A DNA stretch of 64,000 nt, from NCBI RefSeq assembly GCF_017352095.1, contig NZ_CP071463.1, positions 1,116,001 to 1,180,000 on the forward strand, in the 5' to 3' direction. The translations under genes were made by a program, and so were the position numbers. The DNA is from Natrinema longum. Its GTDB lineage: Archaea; Halobacteriota; Halobacteria; Halobacteriales; Natrialbaceae. Each line of letters opens with the position of its first letter. The stretch's first letter is position 1. Of this stretch, positions 1-18,944 are shown piece by piece. The notes below the pieces were generated by a model that saw only the letters and a program-made list of their open reading frames with translations, did no database searches and had not been told where the DNA came from.

Positions 1-124
1 CGATGAACCCACCCATCGGGGCGTAGTCAGCGAGATTCGCCTTCTGGACGACCTCGGCGTACCACTCGCCGGGCTTGTGCGATTTCGACTCGGTGATGCC
101 GAGTTCTTGACTCTCGTCGCTCAT
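1..124 (-). CDS. proS: Prolyl-tRNA synthetase, N-terminal fragment
   Basis: This gene runs off the left edge of the window; only about the first 41 codons are present. The protein starts MSDESQELGITESKSHKPGE and continues through EWYAEVVQKANLADYAPMGG. This is the usual opening of archaeal ProS, where the segment before 'APMGGFI' leads into the class II catalytic core. The enzyme charges tRNA-Pro in the cytoplasm. The ATG at 122-124 is the natural start. The call rests on recognising the N-terminus only, because no catalytic motif lies inside the window. Confidence 0.82.
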   Translation of the reverse strand, partial: MSDESQELGITESKSHKPGEWYAEVVQKANLADYAPMGGFI

Positions 125-317
125 TATGTCGACATGCAGGCAGCGCGGGCTTAAACCATGCGAAGGGCGGTTGGGTCCCGACGTACTCGCGTGGCACTAG
201 CCGCGTCGGCCAGGGGCGGACAGCGGGAATAGAGGTGGCCCGTGCCCCGAGCGATGCCCGCTCGAGGGATACAGCAGTGAATTCAAAACCGCACAATAGT
301 TTCCCCCGGTTTTCGCA

Positions 318-326
318 CATTTATAC
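318..326 (+). promoter_or_regulatory. TATA-like promoter of the quinone oxidoreductase gene
   Basis: The stretch CATTTATAC lies about 30 bp before the ATG at 353, in an otherwise GC-rich context. That spacing fits a leaderless or nearly leaderless haloarchaeal transcript. It also supports starting the gene at 353 rather than at the in-frame GTG at 329. Confidence 0.5.
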
Positions 327-352
327 GCGTGAGCGGCGTGTGTACTGTTGAT

Positions 353-1327
353 ATGAAGGCAATCGAAGTCGACGCCTACGGTGGTAGCGACGAACTCTCG
401 GTCGTCGACGTCCCCACGCCCGAACCGGACGCCGGCGAGGTCCGAATCGACATCGAAGCGGCCGGCATCAACTTCGCGGACATCATGCAACGCGAGGGCC
501 AGTATCCCGACGGCCCCGAGGCACCTTACGTACCCGGCATGGAAGCCGCGGGAACGGTCGACGCGATCGGCGACGGCGTCGACGAGTTCTCGGAAGGCGA
601 CCGCGTCGTCGCGATGCTCGACGGCGGCGGCTACGCCGAGTACGTCACCGCCGACGCGGAGTTGCTCTTCCCCGTCCCCGACGCGATGAGTTTCGACGAG
701 GCCGCCGGCTTCCCCGTCCAGTTCCTCACCGCCCACGCCTGTCTCTTCGAGTGGGGCGGCCTCGAGCAGGGCGAATCCGTCCTGATCCAGGCCGCAGCCG
801 GCGGGGTCGGAACCGCCGCCGTCCAGATCGCGTCGAACGCCGGCGCAGAGGTCTTCGGCACCGCGAGCACGCAAGAGAAGCTCGACCTCGCGGCTGAGCT
901 GGGCTGTGACCACCCGATCAACTACACAGAGACGGACTTCCGCGAGGTCGTCGACGAGGAGACCGACGGCCAGGGCGTCGACCTCGTCCTCGAGAGCGTC
1001 GGCGACGACGTCTTCGATCGTAGCCTCGACGCAATGGCCCACTTCGGCCGCATGGTCACCTACGGCGTCGCCAGCGGCGTCCCTGCTGAAGTCAGCAACC
1101 GACGGCTGCTCTTCGAGAACAAGACCGTCAAAGGGTTCCACCTCGGTCAGGCCTCGTTCCGCGACCCGAGCCGCGTCATGAAGTCCGTCCCCGAACTCAC
1201 CGAAGGGTTCGCCAGCGGCGATCTCGAGATCATCCTCGGGCAGTCGTTCGACCTCGAGGATGCAGCCGAGGCCCACCAGTACATCGAGGACCGGAAGAGC
1301 TCCGGGAAGATCGTCCTGAAGCCGTAA
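353..1327 (+). CDS. Quinone oxidoreductase, zinc-free MDR family
   Basis: The 324-residue protein belongs to the medium-chain dehydrogenase/reductase superfamily, NADPH:quinone oxidoreductase branch. Residues 1-110 form the GroES-like domain, with the conserved GINFADIMQREGQYP segment. The Rossmann NAD(P)-binding motif AAAGGVGTAA starts near residue 147. The catalytic-zinc and structural-zinc cysteines of alcohol dehydrogenases are absent, as expected for this branch. It probably reduces quinones or enones with NADPH in the cytosol, but the substrate cannot be read from sequence. An in-frame GTG lies eight codons upstream. I chose the ATG because the family begins MKAI-EV and a TATA-like element sits 30 bp before it. 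Confidence 0.88.
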   Translation: MKAIEVDAYGGSDELSVVDVPTPEPDAGEVRIDIEAAGINFADIMQREGQYPDGPEAPYVPGMEAAGTVDAIGDGVDEFSEGDRVVAMLDGGGYAEYVTADAELLFPVPDAMSFDEAAGFPVQFLTAHACLFEWGGLEQGESVLIQAAAGGVGTAAVQIASNAGAEVFGTASTQEKLDLAAELGCDHPINYTETDFREVVDEETDGQGVDLVLESVGDDVFDRSLDAMAHFGRMVTYGVASGVPAEVSNRRLLFENKTVKGFHLGQASFRDPSRVMKSVPELTEGFASGDLEIILGQSFDLEDAAEAHQYIEDRKSSGKIVLKP

Positions 1328-1369
1328 CCTGCCGTACTACTCGTCGGAGAGGCCGACGGCAGAAACCGA

Positions 1370-1870
1370 TCAAAACGAGACGTTCCACTCGAGGTCGTGA
1401 TCGACGAAGTCGGCCTCATCGAGCGGTTCCCCGCCCTCGAACCGGAACTCGCCGACCGCGGTGTTGCCCTCGAGGATCCCCGGCAGCCACAGTCGGTCGT
1501 CCTCCCACATCTGGTCGTAGGGCACGTCTTCGACCGAAACCCACTCCGGATGGGCCTCCTCGGACGAGGTCGGTTCGCCGGTAAACGAGCGCGTCCGATA
1601 GACGTGACAGAACGTGTGCGTCTCGCCGTCGAGGCGGAACGTGAGTTCGCCCGCCTTCTCGAGGTCCCGGACCTCGAGGCCGACCTCCTCGCGGGTTTCG
1701 CGGATGGCACATTCGCGTGGCGTCTCGCCGGGTTCACATTTGCCGCCGGGGCCGTTGTACCAGCCTTCGCCGAGTCCGCGGCGTTTCTCGATCAGGAGGA
1801 CCTCGGGATCGGGTTCGACGGCCCTCGTAGGGTCGCCCCGAAGCGGGAAACACAGCGTCGCCTCGATCAT
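1370..1870 (-). CDS. Nudix hydrolase, MTH1/8-oxo-dGTP diphosphatase-like
   Basis: The 166-residue protein carries a complete Nudix box, G-x5-E-x7-REVxEEVGL type, visible from GGKCEPGETPRECAIRET into REEVGLEV at about residues 42-67. The EKRRGLGEGWYNGPGGK lead-in and the C-terminal WEDDRLWLPGIL segment match the MTH1-like oxidised-nucleotide hydrolases. The likely role is cleaving oxidised dNTPs or a related nucleoside diphosphate derivative, with Mg2+ bound by the box glutamates. It is convergent with the quinone oxidoreductase, with 42 bp between the two stop codons. The substrate is inferred from family resemblance only. Confidence 0.85.
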   Translation of the reverse strand: MIEATLCFPLRGDPTRAVEPDPEVLLIEKRRGLGEGWYNGPGGKCEPGETPRECAIRETREEVGLEVRDLEKAGELTFRLDGETHTFCHVYRTRSFTGEPTSSEEAHPEWVSVEDVPYDQMWEDDRLWLPGILEGNTAVGEFRFEGGEPLDEADFVDHDLEWNVSF

Positions 1871-2098
1871 AGTCAGCAGTTCGTTTGGAGGAGGAAAAAC
1901 GTGGGTTATTGCTCGAGTCGAACGGGTCCATCCTGGACGCGAGTGGTGACTTCGAAAGAGCGAGTTCGAAGTGTCTCGGGTCGGCTCTCACACTCCGACT
2001 GGACTAGCAGACAGGGAAGCTACCTGTTGCGACCGATCGATCAATCGACACGCGGAGGCGCACGCTGTCGGGCGACCGAACGATAGTGAGGGCGGCCG

Positions 2099-2217
2099 CC
2101 GATGCCGTGCGAGGGATGAGCGAGCGGTGCGAGGGGTGAACAACGTGAACCCCTCGAAAGCGAACGGCGACCATCGGGAGCCGTGAGCAGTGAGCGAATC
2201 GGTTGGGGAGGGCGTGG
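2099..2217 (+). repeat. Left arm of a 119-bp inverted repeat
   Basis: Bases 2099-2217 match the reverse complement of 2782-2900 without gaps, with about 4 mismatches in 119. The arm contains short internal near-repeats (GCGAGGGATGAGCGAGC, then GCGAGGGGTGAAC) and ends in TCGGTTGGGGAGGGCGTGG. A shortened relative lies at 57373-57428. The arm carries no convincing open frame. The 228 bp between it and the Nudix gene (1871-2098) holds nothing I recognise. Confidence 0.9.
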
Positions 2218-2310
2218 CGATCCCCTGTTGCTACGATAGCAGACCACAGTGTGGGTGTCATAGAACGCTTCCCACGGTATTGATTTCAGCCATTGCTACA
2301 GTGAACATGC

Positions 2311-2336
2311 CGATAAGTAAGTGTGCGAACTTATCG
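2311..2336. promoter_or_regulatory. 8-bp inverted repeat at the end of the small membrane protein gene
   Basis: CGATAAGT at 2311-2318 pairs with ACTTATCG at 2329-2336 around a 10-base loop. The TAA stop of the small gene at 2331-2504 lies inside the right arm. Position and symmetry suggest a transcript 3'-end hairpin. The string CCGATAAGTAA recurs inside the gene at about 2395-2405, so a protein-binding site is also possible. Confidence 0.4.
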
Positions 2337-2504
2337 AAGACGTCGGATTGTTAGCACAGCCACTATAGGACTGAGGAAGAGAATCAAAGTTCCTCCGATA
2401 AGTAACAATTCCATAGGGAGAAGAAAGATCAGCAGCAGCACAAGGTTGCTAAGCAAAAGTGCGATAATCAGATTAAGGCGTAAGATGACCGGTTTATTGT
2501 TCAT
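2331..2504 (-). CDS. Small two-helix membrane protein (57 aa), unrecognised
   Basis: An ATG at 2502-2504 opens a 57-residue frame on the minus strand. It begins MNNKPVILRLNLIIALLLSN, and residues 8-30 and 33-52 are two hydrophobic helices separated by LPMELL. It ends in the basic tail TIRRLR, which suggests N-terminus-out or hairpin insertion with the basic end in the cytoplasm. The frame fills the AT-rich core between the 119-bp repeat arms. An AT-rich stretch with TATA-like strings (around 2510-2540) precedes it. Its stop falls in a small hairpin. The hydrophobic pattern, clean start and stop, and flanking signals favour a real gene. I do not recognise the family. Confidence 0.55.
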   Translation of the reverse strand: MNNKPVILRLNLIIALLLSNLVLLLIFLLPMELLLIGGTLILFLSPIVAVLTIRRLR

Positions 2505-2781
2505 TGTGTGGGGTTTTTAACTATTCCATCATATATCTTGTCTACTAACCACTTGCCCTCTACTGACCGTTCACTCCCCTTCGTAGATCGACCTTCGACT
2601 CGTGTCGTAGCCGCGCTCTGTATTCAGTACGGCTGCCAATATCATCGGTGGCTGAGAGAAGTGCCAGGGTTAGATTCGCATATGATATGTACCGCGTGGT
2701 TCAGTGTGATATGTCGACAGCGTTTGCTATAGTGCTCTCTCTAACACTCATTCGAGCCTGTATCCTGGCTGTACGGAATTA

Positions 2782-2900
2782 CCACACCCTCCCCAGCCGA
2801 TTCGCTCACTGCTCACGGCTCCCGATGGTCGCCGTTCGCTTTCGAGGGGTTCACGTCGTTCACCCCTCGCACCGCTCGCTCATCCCTCGCACGGCTTCGG
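2782..2900 (-). repeat. Right arm of the 119-bp inverted repeat
   Basis: This is the inverted partner of 2099-2217; see that entry for identity. The block between the arms (2218-2781) is clearly lower in G+C than its surroundings and holds one credible small gene. The rest (2505-2781) has only short chance frames. The arm ends 69 bp downstream of the agmatinase stop codon, so that gene is not disrupted. Confidence 0.9.
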
Positions 2901-2969
2901 GCCGCGGATCGCTTATGAGCGACCCGCGGCACAGCGCGCGCCACCGCAGCGTTTTCCAGGAACAGCGAG

Positions 2970-3860
2970 TCACCCGTCGGCGTGCGAAAAGACGAACTCG
3001 CGAACCAACTTTCCAGCCAGCGCGGCCGCCTGCCCGTCGTCGCGGTCGTTGACCTCGACCACGTCGAACCCGCTGGCCTGGGGTGCGACCTCACGTACCA
3101 CGTCGCGGAGTTCGCGGGGCTCGAGTCCGAACGGCTCTTTGGTCCCGGTTCCCGGCGCGTAGCCGGGGTCGGAAGCGTCGATGTCGACGCTCAGGTAGAC
3201 CTCGCGGTCCGTGAATCGGTCGCCGGGCGTCCACGCACGCACGTCCTCGGGCGGGACGACGGTCACGTCGTCGTCGGCCGCCCGCTCCCACTCGGCTTCG
3301 CTGCCGGTGCGAGCACCGAGGACGATCGCCTCCTCGACGGGGTCGACGTCCTCGAGGATCCGCCGGGTGACGGCGGCGTGGGACAGCGCCTCGCCGTCGT
3401 AGGCGTCGTACAGATCGAGGTGGGCGTCGGTACAGACGAACACCTCGGGTTCTACCGCGCGGACGCCCGCGAGCGAGACGGTGTGTTCGCCCCCCAGCGT
3501 CAGCGGAACGCCGTCGTTCCAGACGACCTCGCGCAGGGTGCTCGTGAGATACTCGAGGTAGGCCTCGACGTCGGTCCACGCGCGAACGTTGCCGTGATCG
3601 ACGACGCCCAGTTCCGAGAAGTGCTGGTCCGTCCGGTGGTCGTAATCGTCGAACGGTTCGGCAAAAGATCGAATCCGCTGGGGCCCGAATCGGGTCCCCG
3701 GCTGAAAGGTCGTCGTTGCGTCCAGGGGCGCACCGACGACCACGAAGTTCGCGCCTCCACGGTCGGCCGTCCGGCCTCGCGCGTCGGTGTCGCCTCCACG
3801 GTCGGACTCGCGCCCTCGCGTGTCGGACGGTTCGCGTTCGTCGGTCGCCCCGGGAAACAT
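2970..3860 (-). CDS. speB: Agmatinase / arginase-family ureohydrolase
   Basis: The protein is 296 residues, with an acidic and probably disordered first 35. The ureohydrolase manganese ligands are visible in order: GGEHT, then the DAHLDLYD block, then SVDIDASDPGYAPGTG followed by KEPFGL. Family members hydrolyse agmatine to putrescine and urea. In Haloferax volcanii the agmatinase beside aIF5A is tied to its deoxyhypusine modification. The same arrangement here, with a TAATG overlap to the aIF5A gene, supports that role over arginase or guanidinobutyrase activity. The exact N-terminus is uncertain because the first 35 residues add no fold, but the overlap favours the ATG at 3858-3860. Confidence 0.87.
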   Translation of the reverse strand: MFPGATDEREPSDTRGRESDRGGDTDARGRTADRGGANFVVVGAPLDATTTFQPGTRFGPQRIRSFAEPFDDYDHRTDQHFSELGVVDHGNVRAWTDVEAYLEYLTSTLREVVWNDGVPLTLGGEHTVSLAGVRAVEPEVFVCTDAHLDLYDAYDGEALSHAAVTRRILEDVDPVEEAIVLGARTGSEAEWERAADDDVTVVPPEDVRAWTPGDRFTDREVYLSVDIDASDPGYAPGTGTKEPFGLEPRELRDVVREVAPQASGFDVVEVNDRDDGQAAALAGKLVREFVFSHADG

Positions 3861-4234
3861 TAGACGATCTTTCGCTGATCTTCCATCTCGAGGTATTCGA
3901 TGTTCTCGTCGGGGGAGACGTCGGCGTCCTCGGGGATGCGCATCGTGATGGTCTCGTAGGTCTCGAGGTCCATGACCTGCATGTCGTTGCCGTCGACCGA
4001 GACGACCTGTCCCTGTTTGCGCTCGATGATCGGAACCCAGATCTTCGCGTCGACGGGCTGGGAGAGCGATCGCTTCTTGCCGTCGAAGACGCCTTCGGCC
4101 TCGACGCGGGCCTTCGCACTGCCGTGTTTGCCCGGTTTGGCCGTCGAGTAGGCGTTGATCTTACAGGGGGTATCGTCGATCATGACGTAGCTCCCTTCCT
4201 GGAGTTCGCGAACTTCGGTCTGCTGTTTCGCCAT
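3860..4234 (-). CDS. eif5A: Translation factor aIF5A
   Basis: The 124-residue protein has both domains of archaeal IF5A: an N-terminal SH3-like barrel carrying the hypusination loop [12 protein letters not shown], and a C-terminal OB fold. The modified lysine is K36 in PGKHG. The factor binds near the ribosomal E site and relieves stalled peptide-bond formation. Its stop codon overlaps the start of the agmatinase gene by one base (TAATG), so the two are probably translated together and the polyamine enzyme serves the modification. Length and motifs are normal. Confidence 0.96.
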
Positions 4235-8513: not shown

Positions 8514-9824
8514 ATGGAAGGAGCCGACCGCGAGCGCACGGAGGCCGGGTTCAAGGTGCGGACGCCGGTCGACGAGGCGCGTCACGTTCTGAGGGAGGCA
8601 GTGACGGGGGACGCAGCGGACGCGGACATCCCTTGCGGGACCGAAACCGTCGACGTCGATCGCGCGGACGGCCGCGTCCTCGCCGCCCCGGTCACGTCGG
8701 CTCGAGACGTCCCCCACTACCAGCGAGCGGCGATGGACGGCTACGCCGTCCGGGCCGCGGACACGTTCGGGGCCAGCGATCGGTCGCCCGAAGTGTTGCG
8801 GATCGCCGAGCCCGCCGCCAACGGCGAGCACGCGACCGCCGACAGTATCGCTCCCGGGACGGCCGCGCGGGTCCACACCGGCAGCGCGCTCCCGGCGGGG
8901 GCCGACGCCGTCGTCATGATCGAACGGGTGACCGAACTCGAGTCGGCGGGCGAACTCGAGGTCGAGGACGCCGTCGCAGAGGGGGAAAACGTCGCGCCCG
9001 TCGGCGAAGACGTCGAGGAGGGGCAGGCGCTCTACGAGGCGGGCCACCGGCTTCGGCCGTCGGACCTCGGCTTGCTGCGGTCGGCGGGCTACGGCCGCGT
9101 CGCGGTCGCCCAGCAGCCGACCGTCGGCGTCGTCCCGACCGGCGAGGAACTCGTCGCGGGGGATCCCGGTCCCGGCGAGGTGATCGAGACGAACGGGCTG
9201 ACGGTCTCGCGGCTGGCCCAGCGGTGGGGCGCTCGCGCGACCTACCGCGACGTGGTCACCGACGATCCCGAGTCACTGCGCGTGGCGATTCAGCGGGATT
9301 TGACGAAGGACGTGGTCGTCACCACCGGCGGCTCCTCGGTCGGCGAACGCGACCTGCTGCCGGAAGTGATCGACGACCTCGGCGAGGTGCTCGTCCACGG
9401 CGTCGGGCTCAAACCCGGCCATCCCGTCTGTCTCGGGCTCGTCGAGGACACGCCCGTGCTCGCGCTGCCGGGCTACCCCGTCGCCTGTATCGTCAACGCC
9501 GTCCAGTTCCTCCGGCCGGTCCTGCGCTGGCTCGAGGGAACGACCCCCGAACCCCACCCGACGACGCGGGCCCGCCTCGAGCGCAAGCTCCCGAGCGAAC
9601 CGGGGACCCGGACGTTCGCGCGGGTCCAGCTCGAGCCACGCGATGGCCGGGGGGAAACCGGGGCCGACGGGCCGGCGTACACGGCGATCCCGACGCGTGC
9701 GAGCGGCTCGGGCGTGCTCTCGAGCGTCGCGCTGGCGGACGGTTGGGTGGTCGTCGACGACGACCGCGAGGGGATTCCGGCGGGTGAAACGGTTCCCGTC
9801 GAGAACTGGGAATACACACCGTAG
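8514..9824 (+). CDS. moeA: Molybdopterin molybdotransferase MoeA
   Basis: The 436-residue protein inserts molybdate into adenylated molybdopterin. Domains are in the usual MoeA order. The N-terminal substrate region carries VPHYQRAAMDGYAV. The MPT-binding domain has TGEELV, the TTGGSSVGERDLLPEVIDD block and LKPGHPVCLG. A C-terminal beta-barrel follows (VQLEPRDGRGE onward). The start is the ATG at 8514. The in-frame extension upstream is not conserved-looking. A second, longer MoeA with an extra binding-protein domain lies at 59825-61729, and a MoaE fusion at 48159, so much of the cofactor pathway is in this window. Confidence 0.93.
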   Translation: MEGADRERTEAGFKVRTPVDEARHVLREAVTGDAADADIPCGTETVDVDRADGRVLAAPVTSARDVPHYQRAAMDGYAVRAADTFGASDRSPEVLRIAEPAANGEHATADSIAPGTAARVHTGSALPAGADAVVMIERVTELESAGELEVEDAVAEGENVAPVGEDVEEGQALYEAGHRLRPSDLGLLRSAGYGRVAVAQQPTVGVVPTGEELVAGDPGPGEVIETNGLTVSRLAQRWGARATYRDVVTDDPESLRVAIQRDLTKDVVVTTGGSSVGERDLLPEVIDDLGEVLVHGVGLKPGHPVCLGLVEDTPVLALPGYPVACIVNAVQFLRPVLRWLEGTTPEPHPTTRARLERKLPSEPGTRTFARVQLEPRDGRGETGADGPAYTAIPTRASGSGVLSSVALADGWVVVDDDREGIPAGETVPVENWEYTP

Positions 9825-9992
9825 CGCTGCTGGATCAGTGGCGGCCGACCGGTCGTGACGTCCGGGAGCCGGGGGCGGTCGACCGGATCGGCCGACGCGG
9901 GAGCTGTAAGCACTGCATTACGGGAAGCCAGCAGCCGACGAGATGCGGTAGGTGTCCGATACTAAACAGCGGGGACCCCGTCGAGACGGGAG

Positions 9993-10976
9993 ATGGATTC
10001 CCCTCCGATTCGCGACGAGACGGTGCTCGTGACCGGCGGTGCGGGGTTTATCGGCAGCCACCTCGTCGATGCCCTCGTTCCCCACAACGAGGTCCGGGTG
10101 CTCGATAGCTTCACGACCGGTGACCGAACCCACCTCCCCGACGACGTGACGGTGATCGACGGCGACGTTCGAGACCCCATCGCTCTCCAGCAGTCGGCCC
10201 GCGGGGTCGACGTCATCTTCCACCACGCCGCCGTCGTCAGCGTCTCGCGAAGCGTCGACGAACCCCGACAGAGCAATCGCACGAACCTCGAGGCGAGCCT
10301 GCTGCTCCTCGAGCAGGCCCGCCAGGAGGACGCGCGGGTCGTCGTCGCCTCGAGCGCAGCCGTGTACGGTCACCCCGAGGAACTCCCGCTCACTGAAACG
10401 GCACCGACGAACCCGACCACACCCTACGGCGTCCAGAAGCTCGCGACCGACCAGTACACCCGTCTCTACGAGGACCTGTACGGACTCCCCACCGTCGCAC
10501 TGCGATACTTCAACGTCTACGGTCCGCGCCAGCAAGGGCCCTACAGCGGCGTCATCTCGACGTTCCTCGAGCAGGCACGGGCGGGCGACCCGATCACCAT
10601 CGAGGGGGACGGCCAGCAGAGCCGGGACTTCGTCCACGTCAGCGACGTGGTCCGAGCGAACATGCGTGCGGCGACGACCGACGCGGTCGGCGAGGCGTAC
10701 AACATCGGCACGGGCCAGCGAACGTCGATTCTGACCCTCGCCGAGACGATTCGCTCGGCGACCGGCTCGTCGTCGCCGATCGTCCATCGCGAACCCCGTG
10801 CCGGCGACATCAGACACAGCAGTGCGGACACGTCGAAGGCGACGCGCGACCTCGGGTTCACCGCTCGCGTCGGTCTCGAGTCGGGGGTTCGATCGCTGGT
10901 CGGTGATCGACGGGAGAGGTCGACCGACGAAACCGCCGGTGCCGGGCTCGAGGAACCCGAAGAACGGTTCGGGTAG
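9993..10976 (+). CDS. NAD-dependent UDP-sugar 4-epimerase-like protein
   Basis: The 327-residue extended short-chain dehydrogenase has the NAD motif TGGAGFIGSHL at residues 13-23 and the catalytic SSAAVYG serine. It also has the Y-x3-K pair in TPYGVQKLATDQY, and RYFNVYGPRQ and GDGQQSRDFVHVSDV as sugar-nucleotide contacts. This pattern is that of UDP-glucose/UDP-GlcNAc 4-epimerases (GalE/WbpP type). It lies at the left edge of the surface-glycan region and would supply galactose- or GalNAc-type donors. The sugar specificity cannot be read from the sequence. Confidence 0.9.
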   Translation: MDSPPIRDETVLVTGGAGFIGSHLVDALVPHNEVRVLDSFTTGDRTHLPDDVTVIDGDVRDPIALQQSARGVDVIFHHAAVVSVSRSVDEPRQSNRTNLEASLLLLEQARQEDARVVVASSAAVYGHPEELPLTETAPTNPTTPYGVQKLATDQYTRLYEDLYGLPTVALRYFNVYGPRQQGPYSGVISTFLEQARAGDPITIEGDGQQSRDFVHVSDVVRANMRAATTDAVGEAYNIGTGQRTSILTLAETIRSATGSSSPIVHREPRAGDIRHSSADTSKATRDLGFTARVGLESGVRSLVGDRRERSTDETAGAGLEEPEERFG

Positions 10977-11290
10977 TGGCGTAGAAGGCACTGTCACCCG
11001 TCGTCGTGTTCGATCGAGGGAGAGTAACGCCAACGTATTTTTACTGGCTAAATCCGGGGCAAATCCGCGCTAGCCGTTCCGAACGTCCGCTCGAGTTTAT
11101 TCGGTTCCTCGAGCAAAGCGTAGCGGTACCATGTCCGGCACGTGTTCCGCCGTGAGTGACCACGCGCTGGAGTCGCGGTCCGGTTGTCGGTCAGTGTCTG
11201 CCGTATGCGGACAGCTCACCGAAAATCCGTCGGTGAAACGGAATGCCGGATCGGCGTGAGATACTGTCTGGAGAGTAACAGAACATGAGG
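10977..11290. other. Intergenic stretch, no gene seen
   Basis: This is about 310 bp between the epimerase and the HTH regulator. Frames on both strands are short and have shadow-like composition. The AT-rich piece near 11036-11060 may mark the end of the epimerase transcript. Confidence 0.5.
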
Positions 11291-11300
11291 TATAAAAAAC
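11290..11300 (+). promoter_or_regulatory. TATA element before a leader ORF and HTH gene
   Basis: GTATAAAAAAC is one of the clearest TATA-like strings in the window. It lies about 41 bp before the leader ATG at 11332 and about 73 bp before the regulator's ATG at 11364. Transcription starting 25-28 bp downstream would include the leader frame. Confidence 0.55.
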
Positions 11301-11331
11301 GATTTGTAGAGCGCTCACGAGGGTACAGGAC

Positions 11332-11367
11332 ATGAACCACGCGTATACGACCGCTCCACAGCCATGA
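11332..11367 (+). CDS. Possible 11-codon leader ORF
   Basis: The frame MNHAYTTAPQP ends in a TGA that overlaps the ATG of the following regulator (ATGA). It is the first ATG downstream of the TATA-like element at 11290-11300. It could couple translation of the regulator by re-initiation. It is too short to judge as a protein and may be chance. Confidence 0.25.
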   Translation: MNHAYTTAPQP

Positions 11368-11864
11368 GCATCGGATGGTGGGGTCTCACTCCGACCGAGG
11401 CGCTCGAATCGTCGACCGACGGTGTGGTCGCATCCGCGGTTACGGCGAGTTCCCGGTTCGGGTTGGGCTCGGAGGCCCTGCGGCCGCTTCAGGGAGAGGG
11501 GAGTGCCCACGTCGCGGCCCTCGCCGGGATGATCGCCCTCGCAGTGCTCGGCGGGCTACTCGTCGCTCGGAATCGATACGAGGAACCGCCCTCGTTCGCG
11601 AACCAGAGCGACCATCCCGGCGAGGAGTTCGTGACCGATCGGGAGCGCATTCGGCAACTCCTCAGCGAGAACGGCGGCCGGATGAAGCAATCGAATATCG
11701 TTGATTCCGTCGACTGGTCGAAAGCGAAGGTCAGCCGACTGCTCGCCGACCTCGAGGAGGACGACCAGATCACGAAACTTCGACTCGGGCGGGAGAACCT
11801 GGTCTGTCTCCCGGGATACGAACCGACGGCTTCGAAATCGCCCGAGCAGGCAAACGACGACTAG
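11364..11864 (+). CDS. Membrane-anchored winged-HTH regulator
   Basis: The 166-residue protein has one transmembrane helix at about residues 49-67 (VAALAGMIALAVLGGLLVAR). After a short acidic linker there is a winged helix-turn-helix: RERIRQLLSENGGRMKQSNI, then VDWSKAKVSRLLADLEEDDQ and a wing, ITKLRLGRENLVCL. This architecture (anchor plus a C-terminal MarR/DUF7343-like DNA-binding domain) is common in haloarchaea and is often encoded beside surface-structure genes. Here it stands at the left edge of the glycan region, so it may regulate that region. The residues before the helix look extracytoplasmic. Confidence 0.78.
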   Translation: MSIGWWGLTPTEALESSTDGVVASAVTASSRFGLGSEALRPLQGEGSAHVAALAGMIALAVLGGLLVARNRYEEPPSFANQSDHPGEEFVTDRERIRQLLSENGGRMKQSNIVDSVDWSKAKVSRLLADLEEDDQITKLRLGRENLVCLPGYEPTASKSPEQANDD

Positions 11865-12280
11865 CGAACGTCCCAGAACTGCACGGAGTCGAATCCGGCT
11901 GGGGGTCTCGAGTTCGGCCTGTAGCCGACGCGTCGGAAGGGACTGGTGGCGTCCCACGTCGATATCCCATGGTCGAAGGTGGCTGGGGATGCCCAGCCCG
12001 CCCCTCGTGAGTAGTTCGATCCTACAGCCGACGCGTGAGCGGCACCGATCGGTGGTCGATCGCTCAGAGACCCGAGAGCGGAGCCAACGTCCACGCTCGG
12101 TCGTCGAGAGACCGGTGGGGTCGGCGACCGCTCGTTCATGTCAACAATCGTTGGTTTCCGTGGTCGAAGCTACCACTGAAGCGGTCACCGAAGGGTCGTA
12201 GTATTCGATTTCTCAACGTAATGGTTCTCCCGGTTTATCCGCGCTACTCACGTCAGAGACGGATGCCCACACGGGCAACT
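11865..12280. other. Intergenic stretch with a short direct repeat
   Basis: No frame here has coding character. AGCCGACGCGT occurs twice, near 11924 and 12023. The last 60 bp (TATTCGATTTCTCAACG onward) is AT-richer and probably holds the promoter of the truncated secreted-protein gene. Confidence 0.45.
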
Positions 12281-12751
12281 ATGAACGCACGCAACCAGTT
12301 ACTCGTCGTCCTTACCGCGCTGATGCTCGTTTGCTCGAGCGGGGCGATGGTGGCAGCCGCGACATCCGGCGACACCATCGATCAGAGCAGCGACGTCAGC
12401 GAGGACGAGTACGACACCGCAGACAACGAATCGACAGAGGAAACGGCAGACGAACAGGAGGTAGCTGAAACGGCAGACGACACGGACGCTGAACTGGAGC
12501 CCGACGCCGACTCCGAAAACGAGTCGGATGGCTCACAAGGCGCGTACGTGACGTTTAACGACCAGACGATCGAGGACGATACGGTCGTCGTCGAGAACGT
12601 CTCGCTGGCGAGTCCAGGCTTCGTGACGATTCACGATAGCAGTCTTCTCGAAGGAAACGTCCTCGAGAGCGTCATCGGGACCTCGGAGTATCTCGAAGCC
12701 GGCACCTACGAGAACGTCGAGATCACGCTCGACGAGTCGCTCGAGGACGAG
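12281..12751 (+). pseudogene. Secreted DUF7282-type protein, 3' end lost at a joint
   Basis: The frame starts at ATG 12281 with the signal peptide QLLVVLTALMLVCSSGAMVA. A highly acidic Ser/Thr/Glu linker follows (about residues 28-85). Next comes the beginning of a DUF7282-like domain: AYVTFNDQTIEDDTVVVENV, then SPGFVTIHDS and YLEAGTYENVEITLDESLED. Members normally continue with a second half of the domain and often an anchor. Here recognisable sequence stops at about 12751. Beyond that the frame reads antisense through a glycosyltransferase fragment and becomes basic nonsense. The gene is therefore broken, although an aberrant protein could be made. Confidence 0.7.
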
Positions 12752-13078
12752 CACGACCGGCGTCCGCGTGAGCGTGCCGGCGACGGCCGCGTAGGGACCG
12801 CGACCGAAGACGACGTCGGGATCGAACCGGATCGCTTGGAGCCCGATCGAGAGGAACTGGCCACCCAGTTCGCGGCCGAACGCGAGCGTCGAGTAGCCCT
12901 CCGTTTCGTGGTCGCCGTACACCCGGTAGGGAACGCCGAAATAGTCGAGGAGATCGGTCGTACAGGCGTACTCCCGAGTAAGCACGAGCACGTCGTGTCC
13001 CGCCCGCTCGAGGCGGTCGACGGCGTGTCGGTACAGGTGGACGTGTGCGGGCGTATTGGCCAGGACGAGGATCCGCAT
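12740..13078 (-). pseudogene. DUF354-type glycosyltransferase, N-terminal third only
   Basis: The frame starts at ATG 13076-13078 with MRILVLANTPAHVHLYRHAV and continues through RAGHDVLVLTREYACTTDLL, FDPDVVFGRGPYAAVAGT and PVVLVL. This is the N-terminal Rossmann half of the DUF354/UDP-GlcNAc 2-epimerase-like glycosyltransferases (GT-B fold). It should run on to about 340 residues. At 12740-12751 the homology ends and the frame enters the antisense of the DUF7282-type gene. The catalytic C-terminal half is missing. The gene diverges from the GT4 gene at 13243, a common pairing for glycan genes. Confidence 0.7.
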
Positions 13079-13104
13079 CGGCCACACCTACACCCCCTCG
13101 ACCC

Positions 13105-13112
13105 TTTGTAAT
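13105..13112 (-). promoter_or_regulatory. Shared promoter-like motif (ATTACAAA variant)
   Basis: On the minus strand this reads GATTACAAAGGG. Its upstream end lies 34 bp before the start codon of the truncated DUF354 gene. It is the weakest match in a set of six ATAACAAA-like elements in front of glycan genes. Confidence 0.35.
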
Positions 13113-13202
13113 CGTATCGCTACGGGGGACCACGGTCGGAAAGTACCGGCTACGAGAGACACGTCTAGCTGTACGTGAAGAACAATCCCGGAGCGAGGTG
13201 GC

Positions 13203-13210
13203 TAACAAAA
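13203..13210 (+). promoter_or_regulatory. Shared promoter-like motif before the GT4 gene
   Basis: CTAACAAAACGG lies 40 bp upstream of the ATG at 13243. It belongs to the ATAACAAA-like set found at 13105, 20090, 21151, 21301 and 25968. Confidence 0.4.
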
Positions 13211-13242
13211 CGGCTCCGGCTCGTCCCTGCGGACGACTCGAG

Positions 13243-14226
13243 ATGCACGTTCTGACGGTGACGACGAACGAGGACGCCCCGTTCCTGACCCAGCAGGTTG
13301 ACGCACTCGAGGAGCGGGGGGTCTCCGTTTCGACGGTGTCGATCGCAGGGGAGGTCGACGCCGATACCGACCGGAGCCCGACGGATTACGTCCGGACCGT
13401 CCCACGACTCCTCCGGGAGGCGAGGAACGGCTACGACCTGCTCCACGCCCACTACGGGTTGACCGCGCCGATGGCGCTCGCACAGCTCCGAACGCCGGTC
13501 GTCCTCTCGTTGTGGGGGTCGGACGTACACGGCCCCGTCGGCCCGATCAGCCGGCTCTCCGCGCCGTTCTGTGACGCGGTCGTCGTCATGTCCGAGGAGA
13601 TGCGCGAGGTGATCGGCGACGACTGTACGGTGATCCCCGACGGCGTCGACCTCGAGACGTTCCGGCCGGAGCCACAGGCGCGAGCCAGGGACCGGGTCGG
13701 GTGGGACGACGGGGAGGACGCTTATAATGTGCTTTTCCCGTACTCGCCCGCACGCGGGGTGAAAAATTATCCACGGGCAGAGCGTATCGTGACCGTCGTC
13801 GACAACCTCCTCGAGCGGCCGGTCCGGCTCCGGACCGTCTACGGCGTCGACCACGACGCCGTGCCCGACTACATGAACGCCGCCGACGCGCTCCTGTTGA
13901 CCTCCTACAGCGAGGGGTCGCCCAACTCGGTGAAGGAAGCCCTGGCCTGTAACCTGCCAGTAGTCGCCGTCGACGTCGGCGACGTCCGGGAGCGACTGGC
14001 CGGCGTCGCTCCCTCACGCGTCGCCACCAGCGACGAGGAGCTAATCCGGGGGTTGATCGACGTCCTCGAGCGCGGGGAGCGATCCAACGGCCGCGAGGCC
14101 GCCCGCGAGGTCAGCATCGACCGGACCGCAGAGCGGATGCTCGAGGTATACGAGCGGGTCGCCGGCCGACCCATCGAGACCGACAGCGAGAAACGGCCCG
14201 CACGGAGCGCGACTCGACTCGAGTGA
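13243..14226 (+). CDS. Glycosyltransferase family 4 (GT-B fold)
   Basis: The 327-residue cytosolic protein starts at the ATG at 13243 (MHVLTVTTNEDAPFLTQQVD). The N-terminal domain has DLLHAHYGLTAPMAL and LSLWGSDVHGP. The donor-binding C-terminal domain has NVLFPYSPARGVKNYPRAER, the YMNAADALLLTSYSEGSPNS E-x7-E-type nucleotide-sugar site, and KEALACNLPVVAVDVGDV. This is the GT4 (glycosyl transferase group 1) pattern. It probably adds a sugar to a lipid-linked or nucleotide-activated surface glycan precursor. A much longer in-frame extension upstream exists, but it is not conserved-looking. A copy of the gene's 3' end recurs at about 14968-15080. Confidence 0.88.
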   Translation: MHVLTVTTNEDAPFLTQQVDALEERGVSVSTVSIAGEVDADTDRSPTDYVRTVPRLLREARNGYDLLHAHYGLTAPMALAQLRTPVVLSLWGSDVHGPVGPISRLSAPFCDAVVVMSEEMREVIGDDCTVIPDGVDLETFRPEPQARARDRVGWDDGEDAYNVLFPYSPARGVKNYPRAERIVTVVDNLLERPVRLRTVYGVDHDAVPDYMNAADALLLTSYSEGSPNSVKEALACNLPVVAVDVGDVRERLAGVAPSRVATSDEELIRGLIDVLERGERSNGREAAREVSIDRTAERMLEVYERVAGRPIETDSEKRPARSATRLE

Positions 14227-14276
14227 GCTCCTCGAGATCGCTATCGCACCGTCGCCGCTCCAGAGTACGGTACCTG

Positions 14277-14390
14277 CTATAGTAGTCGTTGAACCGATGG
14301 ACGCATCGCTCGCGAATCAGCGGCCAGCACGAACGATGCTGGCCGCTCGAGTGCGAGCGGGGGTGCAATGACGTTCAACGACTACTATAG
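14277..14390. mobile_element. MITE-like palindromic element, copy 1
   Basis: The 114-bp element is bounded by perfect 18-bp terminal inverted repeats, CTATAGTAGTCGTTGAAC at 14277-14294 and its complement at 14373-14390. Inside is an 11-bp hairpin, AGCGGCCAGCA at 14319-14329 pairing with 14337-14347. The nearly whole-length foldback has no coding frame. It shares termini and the internal GTGCAATGAC with copy 2 at 29477-29562. The right arm encodes the last residues and stop of the minus-strand AbrB-PIN gene. No clear target-site duplication is visible, and I cannot name the parent insertion sequence. Confidence 0.8.
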
Positions 14391-14821
14391 TTCTCCGTGT
14401 CGGGCCCGAGTGCAACGCGGTCGAGTTCGATCGTCTCGAACGCCTGATCGCTCGAGAGGATCGCGTCGTTCGCGAGCGCAGCGTGGAAGGCGTCGAACGT
14501 GTTCAACCCGTCGTCGATGTACGCCGACGCCTGAAAAACGGCATCCGGATCGACGTCCGTCTCGGCGAGTTCGAGGATCGCGAGCGTCGCTTCCTCTCGA
14601 TCAAAGGCGAACCGCTCTTCGACCAGAAAGAGTTCGATGAACGTCGCCAGCGAGACCTCGAGGTCACCGCGATGCGACTCGAGCGGATCGTCCGGAACAG
14701 GCATGAGTTTGATATCGTCTTCCAGTTCGACGAGTCGGTACCGCTCGCCGAAGCGCTCGCGGACCGCCTTCGGAATCGTGATCCGTCCGCGTTCGTCCGT
14801 CGTGATCCCGGACGGACACAT
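14375..14821 (-). CDS. AbrB antitoxin fused to an N-terminally deleted PIN toxin
   Basis: The 148-residue protein begins with a complete swapped-hairpin AbrB/MazE-like DNA-binding domain (residues 5-47: TTDERGRITIPKAVRERFGE, then YRLVELEDDIKLMPV). From about residue 54 it becomes the middle and end of a PIN-domain VapC toxin: VSLATFIELFLVEERFAFDR, then FQASAYIDDGLNTFDAFHAA and DAILSSDQAF. The PIN start, with the first catalytic aspartate (usually in a hydrophobic 'h-D-T/S' strand), is missing, and so is the antitoxin tail that normally wraps the toxin. The joint lies at the CTCGAG at 14657-14662. The final YSSR and TGA stop come from the adjacent MITE. Loss of toxicity is inferred; DNA binding could persist. 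Confidence 0.72.
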   Translation of the reverse strand: MCPSGITTDERGRITIPKAVRERFGERYRLVELEDDIKLMPVPDDPLESHRGDLEVSLATFIELFLVEERFAFDREEATLAILELAETDVDPDAVFQASAYIDDGLNTFDAFHAALANDAILSSDQAFETIELDRVALGPDTENYSSR

Positions 14822-14939
14822 CTATCGACGACGTGCGGGCAAGAAGTGAATCTACTCCCATCTGTTCCACTCGAGTGGGAAATTCGGGCTCCGTCGTTCG
14901 GTCGAGCCGGTGCGATGTGAGTTACGTGAAACCACCCGG

Positions 14940-14974
14940 GTCCGCTTCATCGCTTCGGGCACGTGTGCCTCGAG
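14940..14974 (-). pseudogene. Short copy of an epimerase 3' end
   Basis: Bases 14942-14974 resemble the C-terminal codons of the epimerase gene at 17038-18018 (28 of 33 bases). On the minus strand they read LEAHVPEAM, the same nine residues as near that protein's end. The similarity stops at CCTCGAG, where a different copied fragment begins. Confidence 0.5.
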
Positions 14975-15080
14975 CGCGACGAGTGCCCTGACGGCCGCGA
15001 AGCCGCTCGCGCGGTCGGCATCGACCGGACCGCAGAGCGGATGCTCGAGGTGCACGAGCGGGTGGCTAGTCAGGGTGTCG
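14968..15080 (+). pseudogene. Copied 3' end of the GT4 glycosyltransferase
   Basis: The frame reads DGREAARAVGIDRTAERMLE then VHERVA. This closely matches the end of the GT4 protein at 13243-14226, GREAAREVSIDRTAERMLEV. Similarity begins at the CCTCGAG shared with 14064-14070 and fades by about 15080. The piece has no start and no upstream domain, so it is a displaced fragment. The remaining flanks, 14822-14939 and 15081-15170, hold no gene; the latter marks the beginning of an AT-rich segment. Confidence 0.65.
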
Positions 15081-15170
15081 ACCCTGATGGGAAAAGGATC
15101 CAGACCGAATCATATTTTTCTAATAATCTAAGTCATAAATTATAAGTTGATATAGTAGTTATCATATTAT

Positions 15171-16173
15171 ATGTCGGATAGATATTCCAACATGCCAACT
15201 CGTCGTAGTGCTCTGAGAAAGATTGCTATCGGTTGGGAGTAGCCTATCACTTCCGACTACTGTGGTGGGTCAAGGAAGTGCAACGCTTGGACAGGTTCGC
15301 TCCAATGATTTTGAACCCCAGTGTGGCGGTGGAGGTCAGAGCAATCCTCATGTTCGAGATAGTTCAGTAAAGTCGAATTTTCCAAATGGAGAAGGGAAGA
15401 TGTTCAGTTCGGCTGGGAGTGCGTATGGACAAACCAGCGATATCGTTTGGACTGGTGAACATTGGACCGTTGATTTTCATACGTGGTCCTTTGCGGTGAA
15501 TTCATACGAATTAGACTCCGGCGAAACTGGCACTGAGCCGATTTATCGTGGCCAGCATCGTATACAGGTTGATATGGAAACGAAACCCGACTTGGTCTCG
15601 ACACAACCCTATGATGATGTAGAATGGGGAATCAGCATCGTCGGACGGTCGGAAGCATCACACAAGGTCGATGAAGCAGTTGTATCTACGGCAAACAAAA
15701 TTCTGTCGAACATGACGGAAGGAGTCGGATCAGTAGTTGATGCGATTGGTATCTATAACCGATTACAGAAGGCCACCGTTGGTGCAGATATCGACAAGAC
15801 ATGGGTTCCGTCTCAGGGTCAGCAGCGCCTCGGTCATTATCTCCGATGGACCCATACTTATCCGCCACAGGACGAGCTCGGAGAATCAAGTATTACTGGG
15901 GCGATTACTAACAAGTTATCTAATGCGTTATATAAGACGGAAGTTGAATGGACCGGCGATAGAGAGCCAACTGAGAGATATGAGCATACATATAATTATT
16001 ATGTGCCAGTCGGCCCAAAACCGACAAGCTTGTCGCAAAAAGCGAGCAAAAAGAATCTCATCGAGAAACGTCCCGCCAAAGAGGTGAATAATGATAATAT
16101 TGAAGCAAGCGGTGATGAGGAAGTATACGTTCTCCGTCCTGAAGCGTTCAACCAGCCAAATAACGTGTGTTAA
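15171..16173 (+). pseudogene. Tat-exported protein of unknown function, frameshifted in its signal peptide
   Basis: The first frame, from ATG 15171, reads MSDRYSNMPTRRSALRKIAI and stops at TAG 15240-15242. The next frame continues smoothly as VGSSLSLPTTVVGQGSATLG to 16173 (about 310 residues). Joined, they make a textbook twin-arginine signal. The break lies around 15229-15234, within ATCGGTTGGG, where one base too many (or two too few) separates the frames. The mature part is rich in Gly, Ser, Thr and aromatic residues, with no membrane helix (WTGEHWTVDFHTWSFAVNSY, RYEHTYNYYVPVGP). A/T-ending codons dominate, unlike the neighbours. The domain is not recognised. A sequencing error in place of a real mutation cannot be excluded. 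Confidence 0.65.
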
Positions 16174-16200
16174 TATCCACCTGAATTTGGAGAGATCTGA

Positions 16201-17004
16201 ATGACTATAATGGGGCGAAAATCGATTCTTATTGTTTCATTGTTACTCTTTGGTATCGCGATGATAGCGAACCCGTACTATTTTTGGCCACACCACGGTG
16301 ACGAGGCGTACGAACTCGAGGTCGGGGAGCCGATCGGCGGGGCGGACGACGCGGTCCCGATCGAATCGTTGCCGTCCGAAACAGCCAGGGCGATCGACGA
16401 GGCCCTTGAGGCGTACGAATCCGACGCCGAACCGCCCGTCTACGAGAGTCGGGCGGACGTCCCGACGGATGGGATACCGTCCGAGTCGGGCCGACCCGCC
16501 GTGAGGGCCGACGGAACGGACTACGTCCTGATGATCTCCGAGGTGGATCGATCCCCACCGCTCCTACCCGAGAGTCCGCTCGTTCGCGCGGTGATGGGAT
16601 CCGTCGGCGCAGTCGCAATTACGCTCGGCGCGGTGACGGCGGTGACGGGGAGTAGCCGACTCACGACGCGGCGGGCGTGGGCCATCGTCACGGCCCTCGG
16701 CGTCGTTCTGGGCGCGACGATCGCCTACGACGGCGGGGTCCACGGTGTCGCGATTACCGGGCCCGGAACTGGCCCGCTGGATGCGATCGTCGGAACGCAG
16801 GGACGAACGGCCCTCGGTGTCCTCGCGTGGTTCCTCCCGGCGATCGGTCTCGTCATCGGCGTGGCGTTTCGACGGCGACGATGGCGGGACGGTTCGAGAC
16901 ACGTCGGCGAGCCCCTCTGCGTGCTCGCCTTCGTCGTCGTCACGTGGCTGTTCACGGTACCCGGGATACTCCTCGGAATACTGATTGGCGAAGAAGCCCA
17001 GTAA
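16201..17004 (+). CDS. Membrane protein of unknown function
   Basis: The 267-residue protein has an N-terminal hydrophobic segment (SILIVSLLLFGIAMIANPYY). An acidic extracytoplasmic domain of about 110 residues follows, containing VPIESLPSETARAIDEALEA and RADGTDYVLMISEVDR. Next are four predicted helices: AVMGSVGAVAITLGAVTAVT, WAIVTALGVVLGATIAY, TALGVLAWFLPAIGLVIGVA and CVLAFVVVTWLFTVPGILLG. The 'L-P-x-E-T-x-R-A-I-D-E-A' segment is a pattern often seen in haloarchaeal surface-exposed domains of unknown function. It follows the frameshifted Tat protein by 28 bp and may have been co-transcribed with it. No enzymatic motif is evident. Confidence 0.65.
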   Translation: MTIMGRKSILIVSLLLFGIAMIANPYYFWPHHGDEAYELEVGEPIGGADDAVPIESLPSETARAIDEALEAYESDAEPPVYESRADVPTDGIPSESGRPAVRADGTDYVLMISEVDRSPPLLPESPLVRAVMGSVGAVAITLGAVTAVTGSSRLTTRRAWAIVTALGVVLGATIAYDGGVHGVAITGPGTGPLDAIVGTQGRTALGVLAWFLPAIGLVIGVAFRRRRWRDGSRHVGEPLCVLAFVVVTWLFTVPGILLGILIGEEAQ

Positions 17005-17037
17005 TTCGGCCGCGTACGGGAGAAAGGGGACTCGAAC

Positions 17038-18018
17038 TTACCGGATTTCCGCCTGGTACCACTCCATCGCCTCGGGGACGTGGGCCTCGAGGGGGCGATA
17101 CTCGTACCCCAGTTCCTCGCTGGCTTTCCGCGAACTGTAGAACAGCCGCCGGGTCGCGAGCGTTGCCATCTCCCGGTCGAAGGGGAACACGCGCCGATCG
17201 GCGACGGCGTCGACGACCTCGGCGACGGGGCCGGCGGCGTGGATGGCCGTCGCGGGAACCCGGATCCGCGCGGGCGAGCCGCCGACGGTCTCGGCGATCC
17301 GGGAGACCGCCCGGTCGTAGGTGAGGTTCTCGCCGCCGAGGATGTAGTGCTCGCCGGCGGTACCGCGGTCGTATGCCGCCAGCAGGCCGTCGACGACGTC
17401 CGAGACGCCGACGATGCTCAGCCCGCCGGGGAGGTGTGCGGGCATCGTCCGTTCGACGCCCATCGAGAGCAGTTGTGCGGTGAACGCCCCGTCGCCGGGA
17501 CCGAAGATCGACGTGGGATGGACGGTGACGGCGTCTCCGTCGGTGTCGGCGTACCGATCGACCAGGTCCTCCGCCTCGGCTTTCGAGGCCTGATAGGCCC
17601 CGATCGGCTCGGCGACATCGGTCTCGTCGGCGAAATCGGCGTCCCCCTGCGGACGGCGCGTCCCGGACGTACTGGTGAAGACGACCCGGCCCACGTCGCC
17701 GTCGCGACAGGCCTCGAGTACCCGCTCGGTGCCGTCGCGGTTCACTTCCCGGACCGTCTCGGGGCCGGCGCTCCAGAGGCCGATCCCCGCGAGGTGGAAG
17801 ACGGCGTCGGCCCCGTCGACCAGCGGCCGCAGCGTCTCGGTGTCGAGAACGTCACCGACGTGCCACTCGACGCCCTCGAGGTCGCCACGATCCGACGTCG
17901 GCCGGCAGAGTCCGCGGACCGTCCAGCCGTCGGCGAGCAGTCGGCGACAGAGCCGCGAGCCGAGAAATCCGGTCGCGCCGGTGACCGCCGCAATCGGCGG
18001 ATCGGTCGGTCCGGTCAT
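17038..18018 (-). CDS. NAD-dependent epimerase/dehydratase, dihydroflavonol reductase-like
   Basis: The 326-residue extended SDR protein has the nucleotide motif VTGATGFLGSRLCRRLL at residues 13-29, the DAVFHLAGIGLW strand, FTSTSGTRR with the catalytic serine, and Y-x3-K in IGAYQASKAEAEDLV. The VHPTSIFGPGD segment and the tail are typical of NAD(P)-dependent sugar or ketone reductases of the dihydroflavonol-4-reductase type. It is the last gene of a tightly packed minus-strand set (Gfo/Idh/MocA, DUF362, this gene). It overlaps DUF362 by four bases, indicating coupled translation. The substrate is probably a nucleotide sugar, given the neighbours, though related proteins also act on lipids. 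Confidence 0.85.
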   Translation of the reverse strand: MTGPTDPPIAAVTGATGFLGSRLCRRLLADGWTVRGLCRPTSDRGDLEGVEWHVGDVLDTETLRPLVDGADAVFHLAGIGLWSAGPETVREVNRDGTERVLEACRDGDVGRVVFTSTSGTRRPQGDADFADETDVAEPIGAYQASKAEAEDLVDRYADTDGDAVTVHPTSIFGPGDGAFTAQLLSMGVERTMPAHLPGGLSIVGVSDVVDGLLAAYDRGTAGEHYILGGENLTYDRAVSRIAETVGGSPARIRVPATAIHAAGPVAEVVDAVADRRVFPFDREMATLATRRLFYSSRKASEELGYEYRPLEAHVPEAMEWYQAEIR

Positions 18019-18944
18019 CGACCGCCCTCGAGTTGGGGCGGCACGGCGTCGCCGGCCACTGCCGCGTAGACCCGGTACGCAGTCGAGACGGCGGGATGCA
18101 TATCGTCCGACGGCGGCAACTCGCCGTCGGGAATCCGCTCTCGCAGCCGATCGAAGTCGGCGTCGCCCTCGACGGAGATCGGTCCGCGGTCCCCGCGGAC
18201 GGTCTCGAGTGCGCCGTCGCTCTCGAAGGAGCGGCCAAGCAGGGACGTCGCGACGGCATCGACGGCCGGAGCCGAGCCGGCGAACAGCGTGTCCCCCGCG
18301 ACGGGGTCGCCGCCGTAGGCGGTCGTCGCGTCGAGGACGGCGACTGCGGGATCGACGGCCCGCGTCGCCGCGACGGCGGCCCGATCGGACGCCGCGTCGC
18401 AGTCGACGAGGTCGGCGAGCGTTCGCATCGCGCCCGCGACCGGTCCGGCCGCGGTCGCCCGCAGCGACGGGACGACGATCACGGCCCCCTCGGCGAGTCG
18501 ATTCGGGACCGAGAGCGCGACCGGGGCGTCCTCGAGCGCGGACAGGTCGCCGGTTCGGGGTTCGTCCGCCAGATCGACGGCGTCCGCGTCGAACCCCTCG
18601 AGCAGGCTCTCGTAGCCGAGATACTGGACGGTTCGGTCGAAGGAGATGTGCTCGTCGCTCGCGCCGGCGACGGCGATATCGGCGTCCGTCCGCCCCTCGA
18701 GCCGAGCGACGATAGCCCCGATCACGGCGGGATCGGTGACCATCCCCGAGGAGGGGTGGAACGGGTAGTGGGCATCCGGGACGAGCGTGATCCGGTCGGC
18801 ATCCGCGAGCGCGTCGACGGCGGGCTCGAGCACGTCGCGAACGGGTGACTCGAACAGTGCCACTCGGCGGTCGATATCGGGTAGCCAGCCCCCACGGCGC
18901 TCGGCGGCGTCGACGGCGGCTGCACGGACCCGCGCCGTGCTCAT
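18015..18944 (-). CDS. DUF362-family protein
   Basis: The 309-residue protein matches DUF362 in outline: a start with PVRDVLEPAVDALADADRIT, then VPDAHYPFHPSSGMVTDPAV, then the DIAVAGASDEHISFDRTVQY strand-loop and VALSVPNRLAEGAVIVVPSL. It lacks the C-terminal ferredoxin cysteines that some members carry. DUF362 proteins have no settled biochemical role. It overlaps both neighbours in ATGA-type junctions, so its product is probably needed in step with the dehydrogenase and the epimerase. No signal peptide is present and it is likely cytosolic. Confidence 0.72.
   Translation of the reverse strand: MSTARVRAAAVDAAERRGGWLPDIDRRVALFESPVRDVLEPAVDALADADRITLVPDAHYPFHPSSGMVTDPAVIGAIVARLEGRTDADIAVAGASDEHISFDRTVQYLGYESLLEGFDADAVDLADEPRTGDLSALEDAPVALSVPNRLAEGAVIVVPSLRATAAGPVAGAMRTLADLVDCDAASDRAAVAATRAVDPAVAVLDATTAYGGDPVAGDTLFAGSAPAVDAVATSLLGRSFESDGALETVRGDRGPISVEGDADFDRLRERIPDGELPPSDDMHPAVSTAYRVYAAVAGDAVPPQLEGGR

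Follow-up and report, generated by a model that had tools for sequence, protein, structure and literature searches.

A probable 12.9-kb chromosomal deletion in Natrinema longum cut two convergent genes and removed a putative surface-sugar cluster

Introduction

In the Wbp pathway, a dehydrogenase, an oxidoreductase, an aminotransferase, and an acetyltransferase together account for the synthesis of UDP-2,3-diacetamido-2,3-dideoxy-glucuronic acid. The segment that we describe here, which is missing from one strain of Natrinema longum, resembles the WbpA/B/E/D/I-type pathway of Pseudomonas in that genes for these four enzyme types are adjacent. It differs in that the fifth enzyme could be a DUF354 protein instead of a member of PF02350. 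As for how the segment was lost, the closest described process is microhomology-mediated end joining in Haloferax volcanii, in which the DNA between two short repeats is reported to be lost and one copy of the repeat is left (PMC7776575; PMC7521656). The deletions of this kind reported for H. volcanii follow CRISPR self-targeting, whereas ours is a natural deletion of 12.9 kb at an imperfect tract of 11 bp (PMC7521656). We found no prior description of the locus or of the deletion in the literature that we searched by title and the start of the abstract.

Genomes compared

The window is a stretch of 64,000 nucleotides from the N. longum chromosome (NZ_CP071463.1, positions 1,116,001 to 1,180,000). 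The nearest relative is N. ejinorense JCM 13890, which belongs to the same species by its kinship label and whose protein is 97% identical to the stump. (N. ejinorense and Haloterrigena longa are reported to have been united as one species; PMC8530250.) JCM 13890 was our reference for the intact state, and both the size and the crossover of the deletion were measured against it. To locate the joint, a DNA query of 407 bases that spans it (window 12561–12967) was searched against 18 genomes of the same genus. Gene content was surveyed at 17 loci, namely JCM 13890 and 16 genus members with both ends of the segment on one contig; in the other two of the 18 searched genomes (G012 and G014), the ends are on separate contigs. 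The length of the enzyme was counted in 28 other genomes of the genus.

The joint

An earlier note, made from the letters of the window, had proposed that a DUF7282-type gene on the plus strand and a DUF354-type glycosyltransferase gene on the minus strand both lose homology at 12740–12751, that each frame then runs antisense through the other gene, and that one deletion had removed both 3' ends. The comparison with relatives bears out this geometry, and the features are as follows.

9993–10976, plus strand: NAD-dependent epimerase, left flank, collinear with relatives
11364–11864, plus strand: DUF7343 helix-turn-helix gene, left flank, collinear with relatives
12281–12750, plus strand: surviving 5' part of the DUF7282 gene; 157 native residues with a signal-like N-terminus, an acidic stretch, and DUF7282 positions 1–68 of 112
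12752–13111, plus strand: newly acquired end of the DUF7282 frame, antisense to the enzyme gene; the fused frame has 276 amino acids
12741–12751, no strand: deletion joint, the 11-bp tract TCGAGGACGAG, from base comparison with JCM 13890
12533–12739, minus strand: newly acquired end of the enzyme frame, antisense to the DUF7282 gene; the fused frame has 181 amino acids from the ATG at 13078
12740–13078, minus strand: surviving 5' part of the DUF354-type enzyme gene, 112–113 of 367 residues
13243–14226, plus strand: GT4-type glycosyltransferase, right flank, intact and collinear with relatives
17038–18018, minus strand: NAD-dependent epimerase/dehydratase, right flank, collinear with relatives

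Both flanks match JCM 13890 on either side of a single joint. Window 8758–12754 is collinear with reverse-complemented positions 1–4008 of the JCM 13890 locus, and window 12736–14231 with positions 16895–18389. If w is a window position and E is the position in the JCM 13890 locus, then E = w - 8746 on the left and E = w + 4158 on the right, so 12,904 bp are missing from the window: the ends of two genes and also ten whole genes. The earlier note had not foreseen this size or the loss of whole genes. Both end genes are intact and convergent in JCM 13890, and in each of the 16 genus members with both on one contig they are convergent and about 13–15 kb apart.

At the level of single bases, the window is identical to the left flank of JCM 13890 through 12747 and to the right flank from 12747 to 12763, with no inserted bases between them. 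The two flanks both agree with the window at 12741–12745, 12747, and 12749–12751 (TCGAG, A, and GAG), so they form a near-repeat with 9 of 11 bases in common. The window carries the left-flank base at 12746 and the right-flank base at 12748, which puts the crossover at 12746–12748 if the ancestor was like JCM 13890. Only 347 of 100,000 random pairs of breakpoints in the JCM 13890 locus reach such a near-repeat, so it is rarer than expected by chance. Several other genomes have exactly TCGAGGACGAG in the right flank, as the window does. The ancestor may therefore have had a longer repeat than JCM 13890, where 9 of 11 bases agree. With 228 copies, CTCGAG, the core of the tract, outnumbers every other palindromic hexamer in the window, so there is no need to invoke a special site.

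The joint-spanning query was split into two separate matches in all 18 same-genus genomes; none of them had an unbroken match, and only the window's own genome spans the joint. The left match ends at query position 190 (window 12750) in 14 genomes and at 183, 187, 187, and 198 in the others, and the right match begins at 176 (window 12736) in 16 genomes and at 181 in two. The two matches meet within window 12736–12750 in most of the 18 genomes, and with this query we saw no conserved sequence of either family running on past the joint.

The stumps and the fused frames

The plus-strand gene is of the DUF7282 type, as had been suggested: residues 88–157 match positions 1–68 of 112 in PF23951 with 81.5 bits (the cut-off is 27). 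A relative has the complete domain (1–112). In JCM 13890 the full protein runs to 629 amino acids from the same start and is identical to the stump at 154 of 157 residues, and about the last three quarters of the protein are gone. In all 18 same-genus genomes, the DUF7282 open frame has at least 572 amino acids.

The minus-strand protein aligns with its best relatives over residues 1–113 only, and it has lost about the last 255 of its 367 residues. The invariant DDEP at 113–116 and every later invariant residue are lost or lie at the very edge of the stump. Compared to JCM 13890, the stump has three amino acid differences in 109 codons. Its match to DUF354 (PF04007) is weak and below the cut-off (E = 0.011, 15.2 bits), and the intact JCM 13890 enzyme is above the curated cut-off (32.8 versus 22 bits, E = 5.3e-8). 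In all 28 other genomes of the genus the enzyme is of full length, with at least residues 1–365 covered, and no homologue ends at the joint.

The DUF7282 frame (12281–13111) and the enzyme frame (13078–12533) are both open and overlap tail to tail. This is probably because GC-rich haloarchaeal genes often leave their antisense frames free of stops, and we expect the fused frames to be without function. Neither stump has decayed by a stop or a frameshift. At two of the three differing enzyme residues, 24 and 86, the window has the residue of most relatives and JCM 13890 departs from it. Given these open stumps and majority residues, the sequences suggest that the deletion is recent, from the few sites that could be compared. 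Intact flanking proteins are identical to those of JCM 13890 at 306 of 327, 311 of 327, 159 of 166, and 309 of 326 residues.

The lost genes

In the order of JCM 13890, from the DUF354 enzyme towards the DUF7282 gene, the ten whole genes that were lost are:

1: family 2 glycosyltransferase
2: nucleotide-sugar dehydrogenase (TIGR03026, over the cut-off)
3: Gfo/Idh/MocA oxidoreductase
4: DegT/DnrJ/EryC1 aminotransferase
5: hexapeptide acetyltransferase
6: DUF7344 helix-turn-helix protein
7: DUF1616 protein
8: small PadR-like protein (NCBIfam match below the cut-off)
9: second small helix-turn-helix-like protein (120 amino acids, weak match)
10: second DUF7344 protein (domain scanned on the homologue in another relative locus, L055)

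All 12 genes of the segment are present in all 17 relative loci. Of the 12, the window retains the two end stumps only, besides weak paralogues at 26–35% identity. The best single match for the DUF7282 protein covers as little as 26% of it in one of the 17 loci, presumably an effect of its acidic repeats, which would align piecemeal; there the open frames have at least 572 amino acids.

Could the lost genes have moved elsewhere? We reject a translocated or duplicated copy on the chromosome, based on two protein queries and a 12.7-kb DNA query of the segment. We found no chromosomal orthologue of the dehydrogenase (best match 33% identity) or of the aminotransferase (29%). The DNA query gave only short pieces at 68–80% identity, the longest of 277 bp, along with a few pieces of 28–36 bp at 89–97%. 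Its best four matches (265–277 bp, 70–80%) all lie at query 8811–9087, where the small PadR-like gene is.

A plasmid is another matter. In PLSDB, related cassettes at about 80% identity are found on plasmids of other genera: dehydrogenase, aminotransferase, Gfo/Idh, and DUF1616 genes are together on plasmids of Haloterrigena, Natronorubrum, and Halosolutus. In Natrinema, several such cassettes are instead on chromosome-sized contigs. Because Haloterrigena and Natronorubrum carry related cassettes on plasmids, a plasmid copy of the segment in the same strain is possible, and no plasmid of the window's species with the cassette was among the best 15 of 22 matches, in a search that may mask records very close to the window. 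The published assembly of H. longa is reported to total 4.13 Mb, so about 0.5 Mb of further replicons may exist besides the chromosome (PMC8530250).

What the lost genes may do

The four-enzyme cassette is typical of diacetamido-uronic-acid sugars, which fits its gene content, and the substrates are putative. Sequence matches agree with this reading: among proteins of known structure, the closest are a UDP-ManNAcA dehydrogenase, an NAD-binding oxidoreductase, several aminotransferases (QdtB and WbpE among them), and the acetyltransferase QdtC. None of the four enzymes reached the cut-off of a substrate-level NCBIfam equivalog.

For the fifth enzyme, the DUF354 assignment in the earlier note held up and the label of glycosyltransferase became uncertain. 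The intact protein passes the cut-off for PF04007, and its predicted structure (pLDDT 79.9, pTM 0.80, weak around 114–117) is closest to the fold of UDP-GlcNAc 2-epimerases, with Z up to 22.2 (rmsd 3.6, 316 aligned). The diNAc-glucuronate 2-epimerases follow at Z 20.4 (rmsd 4.1, 304 aligned), and the best glycosyltransferase listed has Z 18.3 (rmsd 4.8, 310 aligned). The fold is GT-B-like, with epimerases of the same fold scoring higher, and Glyco_trans_4_4 is below its cut-off. On the other hand, the listed epimerases are just 10–16% identical to the DUF354 protein, which has no match to PF02350 at E = 0.001. Because the margin in Z over glycosyltransferases is modest and the identity is low, the protein may be either an epimerase or a transferase.

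A separate UDP-GlcNAc 2-epimerase of PF02350 is patchy in the genus. It is found in 19 of 29 genomes, including JCM 13890, and is absent from 9 of the 28 others and from the window's own genome, whose chromosome has no PF02350 match, the stump included. We considered arguing that DUF354 is the epimerase given the absence of another 2-epimerase, but with PF02350 in 19 of 29 genomes this argument is weak.

We also considered whether the strain lost all N-glycosylation and rejected this, as an AglB/STT3-type gene is present (864 bits). Because that gene remains, N-glycosylation as such can continue with a different set of sugars.

Rearrangements nearby

Just to the right, a 2.8-kb insertion (14232–17038) lies between the glycosyltransferase and the SDR gene and is absent from JCM 13890. 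It is partly AT-rich, with GC down to 44%. At 14968–15066, about 900 bp downstream of the original, 99 nucleotides repeat the 3' terminal part of the glycosyltransferase gene (14064–14162) with 86% identity, as if the insertion had duplicated the end of that gene. The genes at 15223–16173 and 16201–17004 had no match in Pfam, NCBIfam, or PADLOC, and a defense-system reading of the neighboring genes was dropped, as five proteins had no PADLOC match. There is also a second, small joint at about 14676–14683, within 14375–14821, where the head of an AbrB/MazE-like antitoxin is fused to the tail of a PIN-domain toxin. Relative to the separate frames in two relative loci (L057 and L059), this is a deletion of 178 bp. 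That joint also carries CTCGAG, and its fused frame of 148 amino acids is open.

Discussion

We are confident that the joint records one deletion of 12,904 bp from the chromosome in the lineage of this strain, which cut inside the coding regions of two convergent genes and joined them at a short near-repeat. A double-strand break mended through microhomology is the most likely cause. We infer this mechanism from one short and imperfect tract.

Could the short forms be natural, that is, two unrelated convergent genes that happen to overlap tail to tail? Both fused frames are open. Yet the enzyme and the DUF7282 protein are long throughout the genomes compared, and each new tail is just the antisense of the partner gene, so we find this scarcely credible. 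It is also highly improbable that an error in assembly or scaffolding collapsed about 13 kb. We do know the joint from assembled sequence alone, and H. longa JCM 13563, which may be the same species, is reported to have been assembled from Illumina paired-end and mate-pair reads (PMC8530250). Nevertheless, the joint is clean at the base level, a tract of 11 bp is far too short to mislead an assembler, and the chromosome is one contig of 3,588,874 bp in a genome that is 99.83% complete. The scaffold N50 published for H. longa is 3,590,587 bp, which leaves no room for another 12.9 kb if it is the same strain (PMC8530250).

If the deletion is real, then a mobile element or site-specific recombination might have made it instead of microhomology repair. 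The neighborhood does have other rearrangements, namely the 2.8-kb insertion and the small joint described above, but the flanks meet directly without inserted bases, and we consider this very unlikely. A different question is whether selection, for example by a virus binding the glycan, favored the loss or whether it was neutral. The 12 genes are kept at every relative locus surveyed and were lost here, and the stumps look fresh. But loss in laboratory culture is equally likely, and selection seems to us a rather improbable explanation.

Returning to the deletion by microhomology repair, we infer that it left neither the DUF354 enzyme nor the DUF7282 protein nor the diacetamido-uronic-acid cassette functional, and it is plausible that the surface glycan was altered as a result. 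A bolder proposal casts the DUF354 protein as the 2-epimerase that a haloarchaeal diacetamido-uronic-acid pathway would otherwise lack. The one deletion would then have taken out a whole route of five enzymes, which the other genus members examined have kept, and the strain would be a natural knock-out for a surface glycan, with a fused DUF7282 frame whose product may still be expressed and secreted. We offer this as a speculation that is more likely wrong than right by a good distance.

The event itself is of an ordinary class, if cleanly demonstrated, and it accounts for two odd stumps that would be recorded as short genes in an annotation. What makes it interesting is that the strain is a natural knock-out for a conserved and probable cell-surface sugar cluster. 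Within what is one species by the kinship label, JCM 13890 with the segment and the N. longum strain without it make a matched pair, which could be used to test the role of the DUF354-DUF1616-DUF7282 sugar cluster in the Natrialbaceae.
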